In this document: piece by piece, positions 14,082-30,076 of the stretch | Layout of the letters: every line of letters starts with the position of its first letter | Position numbering within the stretch: position 1 is the first letter of the stretch | Source of the DNA: Lentilactobacillus kefiri | GTDB taxonomy: Bacteria; Bacillota; Bacilli; Lactobacillales; Lactobacillaceae | NCBI RefSeq assembly: GCF_007989105.1 | Contig: NZ_BJVK01000001.1 | Span: 1 to 64,000, forward strand | Reading direction: 5' to 3' | Length of the DNA stretch: 64,000 nucleotides | The notes under the pieces: model-generated | What the model saw: the letters and a program-made list of their open reading frames with translations, nothing else | Told to the model about the DNA's origin: nothing | Databases searched by the model: none | Translations under genes and position numbers: made by a program

Positions 14082-14110
14082 TTGAACATAAGATTCGTTT
14101 GCAAGATAAT
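14082..14110 (+). promoter_or_regulatory. murI-rdgB promoter
   Basis: TTGAAC (14082-14087) and GATAAT (14105-14110) are exactly 17 bases apart. Transcription would begin near 14117, which rules out the longer in-frame start at 14099. Confidence 0.65.
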
Positions 14111-14143
14111 AATGTTATTGAAACAAGGGAAGAAGGAATTCTG

Positions 14144-14938
14144 TTGGATAATCGGCCAATTGGCGTTATGGACTCGGGGGTCGGCGGACTTACCGTCTTA
14201 AAAGAAATTACTAAAATCCTCCCAAATGAATCGTACATCTTTATTGGGGATCAGGCCAATTTACCATACGGGCAAAAGAGTTCTGAAACTGTTAAAAAAT
14301 TAACTAAACGAATTGCGGATTATATGGTTGAGCAAAACGTTAAAATGTTTGTGATTGCTTGCAACACCGCAACTGCAGCTGCGTATGAATATTTAAAAAA
14401 GATTCTGCCGATTCCGGTCATTGGGGTAATTGAACCTGGTGCTGAAATGGCAGTTGAGGCATCAAAGTCAGATCAAATTGGGGTGATTGCCACAAATGGT
14501 ACCGTTCGATCGGGAGATTATGAACGATTGATCAAGGCCCACAATCCCAATGCGGTCGTCTCCTCATTGGGCTGTCCCGAATTTGTCACCATGGTTGAGC
14601 AGGGCTTGGCCGGAACGGTGGAGGCTCAAGTTGCCGTTAATAATCGACTGGCATGGTTCATGGATAAACCAATTGATACCTTGGTTATGGGATGCACCCA
14701 TTTTCCGATTTTACGTCAAGAAATTAAAAACGTTGTTGGAAATGACGTGACCCTCGTGGATCCGGGAATTGCGACCGCTCAACAAGTGTTGGCATATTTG
14801 AAATCCCATCAGGCTTTGACAGATAATCAGAGTCATTCCGAACGAAAATTTTATACAACCGGTAACCCGGTTGATTTTTCAAAGATTGCCGATAAGCTGC
14901 TTGGAACACCTATTTCTGCAGTTCAGTTAGACATTTAA
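14144..14938 (+). CDS. murI: Glutamate racemase
   Basis: MurI makes D-glutamate for peptidoglycan. The 264-residue protein has both catalytic cysteines in context: ACNTATAA (Cys73) and GCTHFP (Cys184), plus the N-terminal GVMDSGVGGLTV motif. I choose the TTG at 14144, which lies 6 bases after AGAAGGA and gives the standard N terminus. A longer frame from TTG 14099 would begin inside the -10 region of the promoter. It heads an operon with rdgB and the broken ysnB. Confidence 0.95.
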   Translation: MDNRPIGVMDSGVGGLTVLKEITKILPNESYIFIGDQANLPYGQKSSETVKKLTKRIADYMVEQNVKMFVIACNTATAAAYEYLKKILPIPVIGVIEPGAEMAVEASKSDQIGVIATNGTVRSGDYERLIKAHNPNAVVSSLGCPEFVTMVEQGLAGTVEAQVAVNNRLAWFMDKPIDTLVMGCTHFPILRQEIKNVVGNDVTLVDPGIATAQQVLAYLKSHQALTDNQSHSERKFYTTGNPVDFSKIADKLLGTPISAVQLDI

Positions 14939-14952
14939 AGGAGTTTGATAAC

Positions 14953-15549
14953 ATGAAAAGACCTGATTCAATTGTGATTGCGTCACAGAACGTGCATAAA
15001 GTCATTGAGTTTGAAGACGCGTTTAAAAACACTGGCGTTACGATCAAATCACTGAAACATTTCGACAATGTCCCTAAGATTGACGAAACTGGGACCACAT
15101 TTGAGGAAAATGCCACATTGAAAGCAACTGGCATTATGAATTTTACCCATCAGGCAGTGATTGCTGATGATTCCGGGTTGGTTGTCAACGCATTAAATGG
15201 CCAACCGGGAGTTCACTCTGCTCGTTACGCAGGGGATCACGATGATGATGCCAATAACAATAAATTACTTAAGGAAATGCAAAATAAGCAGGATCGGTCT
15301 GCCTATTTTGAATCTGTCTTGGTATATTTAACTCCAGAGGGTGACAGAGTTGTCTCCTCAGGAAGAATCGACGGCCAAATTTTAAGAGCCCGTCGTGGTA
15401 ATGATAATTTTGGCTATGATCCGTTATTTTATGTTCCGGCTCAGCAAAAGACGCTTGCCGAAATGACGACTCATGATAAAAATATGATTAGTCATCGTGG
15501 TAATGCCATTCGAAACTTATTGAGTCAATTATTGGAGCTGTGGGATTAA
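14953..15549 (+). CDS. rdgB: Non-canonical purine NTP pyrophosphatase (RdgB/HAM1 family)
   Basis: This enzyme hydrolyses ITP, dITP and XTP to the monophosphates, keeping deaminated bases out of DNA and RNA. The 198-residue protein contains the family motifs SQNVHK near residue 12, ADDSGLVVNALNGQPGVHS, FGYDPLF and EMTTHDKNMISHRGNA. It follows murI by 14 bases, and the last base of its stop codon is the first base of the ysnB ATG, so translation is coupled. The same trio occurs in Bacillus as racE-ysnA-ysnB. Confidence 0.95.
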   Translation: MKRPDSIVIASQNVHKVIEFEDAFKNTGVTIKSLKHFDNVPKIDETGTTFEENATLKATGIMNFTHQAVIADDSGLVVNALNGQPGVHSARYAGDHDDDANNNKLLKEMQNKQDRSAYFESVLVYLTPEGDRVVSSGRIDGQILRARRGNDNFGYDPLFYVPAQQKTLAEMTTHDKNMISHRGNAIRNLLSQLLELWD

Positions 15550-16065
15550 TGAAAATCGTTGCGGTAAGTGATAGTCACGGGGATCGAAAAAATTGTCCAA
15601 CAATTGGTTGATCGCTATGACGGCAAAGTAGACGGCATCTTTCATTGTGGAGATTCCGAATTATCAATTGATGATCCATTGGTTGCCAAACTTCACATTG
15701 TTCAAGGCAATATGGATTTAGCTGCTTTTCCTGATCATGACGTTGAAACAATTGACGGCCAAACAATATTAGTTACCCATGGTCATCATCAAAATGTCAA
15801 CGGTGGTTTGTTGAACCTCGAATTATATGCTTGCAGTTTGGCTGCCAACGTGGTTTTGTTTGGCCATACTCACCAGGTGGGCACGACTTTTGACGATGGC
15901 ATGCTGTTTGTCAATCCGGGAAGTATTTCTCAGCCTCGAGGGGAGTTCGCAGTCATTGGTGGAACTTACGCAATCATTGAATCGGATCAGCATCAATATA
16001 CGGTTCAGTTTTACAATCGTGATTTTCAACCAGTGAAAAAATTAGCTCGACGTTTTACCTACTAG
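15549..16065 (+). pseudogene. ysnB: YfcE/YsnB family metallophosphodiesterase, broken by a one-base frameshift
   Basis: Starting at ATG 15549, the reading frame encodes a normal YfcE N terminus (MKIVAVSDSHGDRK) but hits TGA at 15609. The rest of the protein continues to 16065 one frame over, with FHCGDSE, VQGNMD, VTHGHHQN and FGHTHQ, the remaining metal-ligand motifs. The shift maps to a run of six A residues at 15587-15592; five would restore a continuous 171-residue protein. A GTG at 15568 could start the second frame but would lack the Asp-x-His ligand pair in SDSHG, so it would not be active. It may be a true mutation, a slippery site or a sequencing error. Confidence 0.85.
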
Positions 16066-16087
16066 CAGAAAAGGAGTCTACTTTTAC

Positions 16088-16621
16088 ATGATCGATAAAC
16101 CGATTGAAACTGTCATGAGAGAAAGCAAGCGGAATATTTTGATTCCCGCCGACCTGGTTGCGACCGTTAATCAGGATAATAATCTCCAACATGTTTTTAT
16201 GGTTCTGACAAAGGTTAAATACGCCAAGATTCCGGTTCTGGATAATGATAATCATTTCAAAGGACTGGTTTCTTTACCAATGATCACAGAACTGATGCTT
16301 CAAGATACTGGAATCACCAGTCGGCCATTGGAATCGGTTAAAGTTAAACAAATAATGCAAAAAGATGTGCCAACCATTTATGAGCGGGACAATCTGGAGG
16401 CAATTATGCGTTACCTCGTTGATGAGAACTTTCTGGTGTTTGTTGATTCGGACAATCACTTTAAGGGAATTATTACCCGTCGTGAGCTTTTCAAAGAAAT
16501 TAATTTTCTTGCGCATAATTTCAATAAACACTACATTGCATTGCCGGTTTATAACCATAAATCGACCAGTGAAACTAAAAAGGCGAAAGTTCAAGGAACA
16601 AAAGGGATTATTAATAGATAA
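16088..16621 (+). CDS. cbpB: CBS domain protein, probable cyclic-di-AMP-binding CbpB/YkuL type
   Basis: A 177-residue cytoplasmic protein made of two CBS motifs (about residues 15-75 and 85-145; note YAKIPVLDNDNHFKGLVS and FLVFVDSDNHFKGIITRRELF). CBS pairs bind adenine nucleotides. Homologues CbpB and DarB bind cyclic-di-AMP and regulate (p)ppGpp synthesis and pyruvate carboxylase. That function is inferred from family and length. It follows ysnB by 22 bases with an AAGGAG ribosome site, so it belongs to the murI operon. Confidence 0.78.
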   Translation: MIDKPIETVMRESKRNILIPADLVATVNQDNNLQHVFMVLTKVKYAKIPVLDNDNHFKGLVSLPMITELMLQDTGITSRPLESVKVKQIMQKDVPTIYERDNLEAIMRYLVDENFLVFVDSDNHFKGIITRRELFKEINFLAHNFNKHYIALPVYNHKSTSETKKAKVQGTKGIINR

Positions 16622-27963: not shown

Positions 27964-29346
27964 GTGGAAAAACAAGAAGACGACAATCAACTGTCCCGGG
28001 GCCTCAAAAATCGACATGTTCAATTAATTGCACTTGGTGGAACAATTGGAACTGGATTGTTTCTGGGTGCCGGCCAATCAATTCATTTGGCTGGACCCTC
28101 GATTATATTGGCATATGGAATTGCCGGCTTAGCGTGTTTTCTGCTGATGAGAGCACTTGGTGAATTGTTAGTGTCCGATGTAGAAAGTAATTCATTTGTG
28201 TTTTTCATTAAAAAATATTTAGGTGAAAAAATGGGCTTTGTGATCGGCTGGACTTATTGGATGTGTTGGATCGCAATTGCCATGGCAGAAGTGACTGCCT
28301 CGGGATTATACGTCCAGTTTTGGTTTCCAAACATCCCAATCTGGCTAACGGGGCTAGTCCTGCTATTGATTTTGTTCATCATTAACATTGTGGCTGTATC
28401 GGCGTTTGGGGAGACTGAATTTTGGCTGGCAATTATTAAAATCGTCGCCATCGTTGCCCTGATTTTGATTGGAATTGTCCTGGTTGCAATTCACTACAAG
28501 ACGCCATATGGTCATGCGTCACTTATGAACGTTGTTGACGGTGGTTTCTTCGCCACCGGAGCAAAAGGGTTTGTTTTATCATTTCAAATGGTCCTCTTTA
28601 GTTTTGCCGGAATTGAAATGATCGGGATGACTGCCTCTGAAACCCAGGATCCCTTGGTGACAATTCCAAAGAGTATCAATGAAGTCCCAACCCGGGTGCT
28701 CTTGTTTTATATCGGTTCATTGCTTGCCTTAATGAGTATTTTCCCATGGCAGCATGTATCGCCAACTTCAAGCCCCTTTGTTCAGGTGTTTGCCGGTGTT
28801 GGAATTCGATCGGCCGCGGTGATTATCAACTTTGTGGTTTTAACCGCTGCTATCTCAGCATGTAACAGTTCACTGTTTACAACGGGGAGAATGTTGTTTT
28901 CCCTGACGTATAACGGTAAATCGAAATTCAGTCAGAAAGTTGGCTCACTATCTCGGAGACAGATTCCCTTTAACGCAATTCTGTTTTCAACAGCCGTGAT
29001 TGCGGTGATTGTTTTGCTGAGTATTATGATGCCTGGGGATGTCTTCTCATTTATTTCCAGTGTTGCAACGACTTGTTTCCTGTTTGTGTGGGGAATGATT
29101 GTGTTGGCTCATTTGAAATATCGAAGAAGCATCCAAAAGGCTGGCAGGGAGAAAAAGCTGAAATTTAAGATGCCACTTTTCCCGTTGACTGACTACTTTG
29201 TTTTGATCTTTATGGTCTTTGTCGCATTCGTCTTAACACTTAAAACTGATACTTTGATTGCGCTGGTAGGGTCGGTTATCTGGCTGATTGGGTTATTTGT
29301 ATTTAAAAGCCTGACCGATAAAGTTAAAGACATAGAAGAAGAATGA
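27964..29346 (+). CDS. Amino acid permease (APC superfamily)
   Basis: A 460-residue integral membrane protein with 12 hydrophobic segments. The first helix has the substrate-binding loop GGTIGTGLFLGAG, the hallmark of the AAT family of APC transporters, and the region FSFAGIEMIGMTASETQDP fits helix 6. Such carriers import amino acids with protons. The exact substrate cannot be read from sequence; lysine, proline/GABA or aromatic amino acids are possible. GTG 27964 follows GGAGG by 5 bases. It is a single gene between two terminators. Confidence 0.88.
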   Translation: MEKQEDDNQLSRGLKNRHVQLIALGGTIGTGLFLGAGQSIHLAGPSIILAYGIAGLACFLLMRALGELLVSDVESNSFVFFIKKYLGEKMGFVIGWTYWMCWIAIAMAEVTASGLYVQFWFPNIPIWLTGLVLLLILFIINIVAVSAFGETEFWLAIIKIVAIVALILIGIVLVAIHYKTPYGHASLMNVVDGGFFATGAKGFVLSFQMVLFSFAGIEMIGMTASETQDPLVTIPKSINEVPTRVLLFYIGSLLALMSIFPWQHVSPTSSPFVQVFAGVGIRSAAVIINFVVLTAAISACNSSLFTTGRMLFSLTYNGKSKFSQKVGSLSRRQIPFNAILFSTAVIAVIVLLSIMMPGDVFSFISSVATTCFLFVWGMIVLAHLKYRRSIQKAGREKKLKFKMPLFPLTDYFVLIFMVFVAFVLTLKTDTLIALVGSVIWLIGLFVFKSLTDKVKDIEEE

Positions 29347-29352
29347 TCAATT

Positions 29353-29380
29353 GCCAGGGCGTTATTGTCCTGGCTTTCTT
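29353..29380 (+). terminator. Terminator after the permease gene
   Basis: GCCAGG pairs with CCTGGC across ten bases and runs into TTTCTT. Confidence 0.7.
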
Positions 29381-29412
29381 ATTGGTTTGAGAATACTTTC
29401 TAATTACTAAAT

Positions 29413-29441
29413 TTGTCTTGGGTGGTATCATTAATGATATA
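29413..29441 (+). promoter_or_regulatory. Possible promoter for the 29468-33510 gene group
   Basis: TTGTCT (29413-29418) and GATATA (29436-29441) are 17 bases apart. Both boxes are imperfect. Confidence 0.4.
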
Positions 29442-29467
29442 ACTTATGTACGAAAGAAGACCTGTTC

Positions 29468-30076
29468 ATGCAATTTTTTACTGCTGACACGCATTTTTTT
29501 CATGAACGCTTGCTGGGAATGAGCGAATTTGCTCCACGGCCATTTTTAACAGTGGAGGACATGAACGAAACCATTATTAAAAATTGGAATCGCCGAGTTG
29601 GTGAAAACGATGTCGTCTATCATCTGGGGGATATTGCAATTTTGCATACCCGACCAGAAAAAGTTGCTTTGGAAAAAATCTTTGAGGTATTGGATCAATT
29701 AAATGGCCGCCTGGTTTTAATCAAAGGCAACCATGATTCACGGGCTTTATTCAAATATTTGGAAAAGCATAATCACCCCGTTGGCAATCATCAGAAATTT
29801 GAATTTCACGATGTCGGCGTCCTGATTAAAATGAATCATCGTCAGTATTATATGACCCACTACCCAATGATGATGGGAATTGTCAAACAGATTATCAATT
29901 TACACGGCCACATTCATCACTATGCGGTCCCAATCAAGGAGAACATCAATGTTGGTGTTGATACTCCGGAAACTGATTATCTTAAGAAAAAGCCACCTTT
30001 TGGAACCCCATTTTCTCAAGCTGAAATTGAAGAAATGGTTGAAGGAAAGGCCACGGATTTCGCAAAACGACATTAA
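29468..30076 (+). CDS. Calcineurin-like metallophosphoesterase
   Basis: A 202-residue cytoplasmic phosphoesterase. Metal ligands can be seen as ADTHFFH (Asp-x-His), YHLGDIA (Gly-Asp), IKGNHDS (Asn-His), MTHYP (His) and LHGHIH (His-x-His). Length and motif spacing fit the small phosphoesterases often annotated after an E. coli homologue of unknown role. The substrate is unknown. It begins a group of same-strand genes with short gaps (yunD, yutD, yutF-type). Confidence 0.85.
   Translation: MQFFTADTHFFHERLLGMSEFAPRPFLTVEDMNETIIKNWNRRVGENDVVYHLGDIAILHTRPEKVALEKIFEVLDQLNGRLVLIKGNHDSRALFKYLEKHNHPVGNHQKFEFHDVGVLIKMNHRQYYMTHYPMMMGIVKQIINLHGHIHHYAVPIKENINVGVDTPETDYLKKKPPFGTPFSQAEIEEMVEGKATDFAKRH

Follow-up and report, generated by a model that had tools for sequence, protein, structure and literature searches.

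In the window (the whole 64,000-nucleotide stretch of DNA analysed here), reading-frame analysis showed that a single additional base divides a small yfcE-family phosphodiesterase gene between two frames. We consider it likely that this frameshift is real, arose recently and has cost a dispensable gene its function; judging by the sequence, the gene is probably dead. The first-frame piece (15549-15611, plus strand) opens at ATG 15549-15551, continues for 20 codons to a TGA at 15609-15611, and carries the SDSHG (D-x-H) metal motif, with the D codon at 15570-15572 and the H codon at 15576-15578 (the SDSHG motif of the Lentilactobacillus otakiensis protein was aligned with 3ck2). The frames meet at a run of six A residues (15587-15592, plus strand) that is one base longer than in the aligned genus sequences, the extra column being occupied in only 1 of 24. 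The remainder of the gene (15593-16065, plus strand) lies one frame over, where CGDSE, GNMD, THGHH and GHTH follow before the TAG at 16063-16065.

The second-frame open reading frame (ORF; 15568-16065) scored 79.3 bits against the TIGR00040 yfcE profile (cut-off 56.25) and 88.2 bits against PF12850 Metallophos_2 (cut-off 27) in profile searches. The window copy thus passes the TIGR00040 cut-off as a member of the YfcE/YsnB family (TIGR00040; PF12850) and shares its motif order; it differs from the family in being split between two frames, with D-x-H in the short first piece. Its TIGR00040 match begins only at profile position 28; the intact L. otakiensis and L. sunkii proteins scored 97.4 and 88.9 bits, respectively, and matched from position 1. 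The superfamily motif set given in the accessible text of PMC4320098 (D-x-H, GD, GN-D, H, GH-x-H) is not contained in any one open frame of the window copy, and by that set the two-metal site should not form in either piece. Since the first two metal ligands are missing from the second frame, no active enzyme would be expected from it, and the window copy, as read, is a broken family member rather than a working one. A preliminary description of this DNA had proposed the split by one extra base, the SDSHG motif in the first frame with a stop at 15609, the four downstream motifs one frame over, the A run as the junction and the missing ligands; the frames and coordinates agree exactly with what we obtained, and the 24-sequence alignment places the extra base in this run and in the window only. 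The result also carries a warning for annotation: should the second frame be annotated as a YfcE of 165 aa, that protein would be without the first metal ligands.

The nearest named matches to the second-frame ORF were from L. otakiensis (76% identity, residues 5-164) and L. sunkii (75%), which by sequence similarity places the host, a lactic acid bacterium, in Lentilactobacillus near these two species. The gene was matched in all 24 genus genomes searched, including that of the window. Comparison of the A run with these relatives, akin to the check in related strains recommended in the preliminary description, found the extra base in none of the other 23 genomes; when the starts of the genes were aligned as nucleotides, all of these keep one frame there. 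The run is also present in L. otakiensis, where it is shorter by one base, but it is not kept across the genus and many relatives use other codons at this place. Because the extra base is private to the window genome, it does not represent a conserved recoding event, and since the run itself is not conserved, it is not a maintained slippery site. Plasmid records searched for the yfcE locus gave no match. It could be argued that the second frame is translated from GTG 15568 or TTG 15604 into a shorter protein with another role, given that 165 aa are open from GTG 15568. We find this hardly credible, considering that no Shine-Dalgarno-like sequence was seen by eye before either codon, that the product would be without the D-x-H ligands, and that the 23 relatives carry the D-x-H part and the rest of yfcE in a single frame.

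The same comparison bears on whether the gene is real and expressed through slippage or ribosomal frameshifting, or whether the A run serves as an on/off contingency run. At this position the codons of the zero frame (A AAA AAT) resemble -1 slippery heptamers by eye and the downstream frame is intact, but a -1 step leads into the wrong frame, a +1 step being needed, and the site is found in 0 of 23 relatives. Runs of this kind are also common, with 124 A6 runs on the contig of the window alone, so a run of six A is nothing special. Slippage-prone runs are longer in the accessible parts of the literature: PMC1088944 describes selection against A/T runs at about nine bases in many genomes (adding that shorter ones may slip in some bacteria), and PMC3711429 describes transcriptional realignment at A runs longer than seven and regards singletons as a sequencing error or a recent indel. 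According to the accessible text of PMC5574713, single-base insertions in E. coli and Buchnera increase exponentially as runs get longer and deletions are rarely tied to runs; the yfcE frame would be restored by a deletion (or a two-base insertion). We regard regulated use of the run as unlikely. Programmed slippage in Thermus thermophilus dnaX and in IS elements, as covered by the accessible part of PMC1088944, likewise involves a run of A where the frames meet, but yfcE has six A instead of nine and its run is not conserved in relatives. We therefore rejected a programmed frameshift on the grounds that the site is private and the direction of the A AAA AAT heptamer is wrong, and we judge expression by slippage, frameshifting or a contingency run to be very unlikely. 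Even less probable, in our view, is that the A6 run acts as a reversible low-frequency switch, in which replication or transcription slippage would give full-length YfcE in a fraction of cells or messages. If that were true, it would mean that a bet-hedged phosphodiesterase is kept between rdgB and cbpB, the gene for the cyclic-di-AMP sensor.

The neighbouring genes are each whole, as the preliminary description had stated. They include glutamate racemase (14099-14938), rdgB, encoding XTP/dITP diphosphatase (14953-15549), and cbpB, encoding a cyclic-di-AMP-binding CBS protein (16088-16621), all on the plus strand. The rdgB stop codon overlaps the yfcE start (TAATG), the first A of the ATG at 15549 being the last base of the TAA. 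By eye, cbpB has its own ribosome-binding site (AAAAGGAG at 16069-16076), and it should therefore still be made. In many genus sequences, as in the window, rdgB stands directly before yfcE and the start of a cbpB-like gene after it (judged by eye and from coordinates), although this synteny is not universal in the genus (e.g., G010, G018 and G019 have rdgB elsewhere).

To place the lesion in the context of the family, we surveyed 396 genomes (completeness of at least 90%; match at E up to 1e-3). The yfcE gene was matched in 264 of these and had no match in 132, and nine of the 264 matches were weak (E 3e-4 to 7e-4) and are probably other phosphoesterases. In contrast, the control gene rdgB was matched in 395 of the 396 genomes, G370 being the sole genome without a match. 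The yfcE gene is dispensable in the family. A profile search of the window genome found no second TIGR00040 copy; three further PF12850 matches, one of them just above the cut-off, fall within ORFs of 290, 295 and 427 aa, and a backup copy was rejected at the TIGR00040 level. Among the 150 yfcE matches listed (counted by hand), only that of the window starts after residue 4, at 11, and only one other Lentilactobacillus (G016) has a mid-gene stop, an in-frame TAA after HGHL (L030:1711-1713) where, among 14 further relatives with a complete translation, nine have Q and the others F, Y or H. Other stops among these matches lie at the gene end (four rows, from G005, G007, G014 and, as its second stop, G016). 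We looked once more at fifteen genomes that had given either two matches or a weaker one. In G065 the halves of yfcE stand in different frames, with a frameshift near codon 100. In G126 each half stands at the end of a different contig, both of these ends carry inverted-repeat-like sequence, and the gene was probably split there by a putative insertion element. The remaining 13 genomes have one full-length yfcE each, their second matches being weak and located elsewhere. Taken with the missing matches, the lesions in G016 (nonsense), G065 and G126 indicate that loss or breakage of yfcE has occurred on several occasions. Our literature search found no title on a Lactobacillus yfcE/YsnB gene, which does not imply that such work is absent from print.

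To evaluate the age of the lesion, we compared the window copy with those of L. otakiensis and L. sunkii. About 156 codons of the second frame are without a stop, and no second lesion was seen in the window copy. Non-synonymous branch lengths after the junction were 0.080 for the window, 0.073 for L. otakiensis and 0.069 for L. sunkii, so this triplet gave no clear sign of relaxed constraint or of faster amino-acid change. The dS values were saturated or undefined in many pairs, and for this reason no omega (dN/dS) is given for the yfcE branch. It is noted that yfcE evolves fairly fast in general, with 33 of 320 compared ORFs, itself included, being as diverged or more. The lack of clear relaxed constraint suggests that the lesion is either recent on the scale of species or not real. 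The second reading, that the run was overcalled and the strain carries an intact yfcE, is favoured by a gene that otherwise looks to be under normal constraint, and the assembly is a draft of 118 contigs (2,486,254 bases).

We therefore looked at how often other genes are broken in this genome. ORFs of L. otakiensis were compared with three contigs in full (C1, the contig of the window, C2 and C4) and with the initial 140 kb of C3 and 100 kb of C5; on the L. otakiensis side, the stretch corresponding to C3 ended early at a contig end. In total, 592 ORFs had at least 40% identity (180 on C1, 140 on C2, 54 on C3, 117 on C4 and 101 on C5) over 557,580 bases. The ORF set is mechanical and includes some non-genes, and the scan is blind to lesions in genes without a counterpart and to very short lost ends. 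The automatic search for split genes missed yfcE, whose first piece is too short, and later scans also flagged missing ends. Besides stops inside matches, the flags comprised 12 rows for C1 in the first of these later scans and, after tightening, 8 (C1), 15 (C2), 4 (C3), 12 (C4) and 4 (C5); a shared Met near the match start led to the discarding of 7, 6, 3, 1 and 1 rows (C1, C2, C3, C4 and C5). Part of the remaining flags were read at the DNA level and the others were judged by translations, start codons and overlapping frames; those rejected look like indels in the spacer ahead of a start codon, ORFs that are antisense or out of frame, or tandem paralogues. Left uncounted were an ORF on C2 (128,166-128,582) with 50% identity and a C5 gene at ~33,830 in which a stop precedes the last 20-odd residues.

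Nine genes were clearly broken in the 592 ORF comparisons (0.56 Mb): four have a single-base insertion, three a nonsense codon and one a 4-base deletion, and one is truncated. Apart from yfcE, the sole broken gene on C1 (one A added), the names that follow were read by eye from translations and not from a family search. The other single-base insertions are in a 415-aa protein (C2 ~154,440; one T added), a gene reading as proB, glutamate 5-kinase (C2 ~120,220, minus strand; an extra G in a G run relative to L. otakiensis), and an aminotransferase-like gene (C3 ~92,013, minus strand; one T added). The proB lesion may entail a proline requirement, or it may be a sequencing error. A transporter gene lacks four bases (C2 ~44,680, minus strand). 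Nonsense codons stand in a pyruvate-oxidase-like gene (C3 ~59,920, minus strand), an ABC permease gene (C4 ~55,200, minus strand) and an ABC transporter gene (C5 ~85,880), in each case where L. otakiensis has CAA or CAG. The truncation is a remnant of a second branched-chain-aminotransferase-like gene (C5 ~29,280-29,590) directly behind an intact copy, both of which are whole in L. otakiensis.

The reverse scan compared 604 ORFs of the window genome with L. otakiensis (184 for C1, 147 for C2, 57 for C3, 117 for C4 and 99 for C5, each set against the counterpart stretch), after rows with a shared Met had been discarded (7, 6, 2, 5 and 2 for C1 to C5), and found two clearly broken genes. These stand at ~190,370 on C17 and ~96,510 on C19 of L. 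otakiensis and both are intact in the window genome; one is glutamate-dehydrogenase-like (by eye) with a single-base change near its end and the other is a 541-aa gene with a nonsense codon. A small C-terminal frame difference on C19 of L. otakiensis (counterpart of C2 45,516-46,445 in the window genome) and an ORF on its C15 (counterpart of C5 93,904-94,398) were not counted.

These results allow sequencing or assembly error to be weighed against a real lesion. Each of the four single-base frame changes adds a base next to an identical one, the runs concerned being 3 to 6 long. This is the pattern of overcalled runs, which a repair defect does not explain (mutS and mutL being full length), and it argues against real loss. 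The yfcE lesion resembles, with no notable difference, the singleton frameshift pseudogenes of GeneTack in the accessible text of PMC3711429 (one indel in one genome, with intact homologues elsewhere and no conserved frameshift site), and according to that text, singletons that BLASTp validates should be sequencing errors and not real indels. A literature search for papers tying 454 pyrosequencing homopolymer frameshifts and pseudogenes to Lactobacillus found none. On the other hand, only one true frame break was found among 180 ORF comparisons on the contig of the window, despite 235 runs of six or more. For three of the four genes hit by single-base insertions, the names (by eye or by family) suggest dispensability, the fourth being nameless. 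Furthermore, sequencing error would hardly produce the three nonsense codons, the 4-base deletion and the truncation, so gene loss in the window genome is real, and a frameshift in the dispensable yfcE fits such ongoing decay. Error is accordingly a possibility to be taken seriously but distinctly less probable than a real mutation; both weights were assigned by judgement and not computed. Among the three options offered in the preliminary description, a fresh lesion is thus best supported (none of 23 relatives shares the break, the branch is little different from those of its neighbours, the gene is dispensable, and other genes are decaying by nonsense and deletion), sequencing error comes second, and slippage regulation found no support.

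In the case of a real and recent loss, one A would have been gained in a short A run near the yfcE start, presumably by replication slippage. A mismatch-repair defect was rejected as the cause, mutS and mutL both being full length in the window genome. Ribosomes would then start at the ATG overlapping the rdgB stop, make ~20 residues and stop at the TGA at 15609, and no active YfcE would be made.

Taken alone, this case matters little, and it adds one example to a pattern of yfcE dispensability. The gene is unmatched in one third of the sampled family genomes and carries different lesions in at least three others, in contrast with rdgB. The natural substrate of YfcE might be sought by comparing the genomes that keep yfcE with those that lose it.
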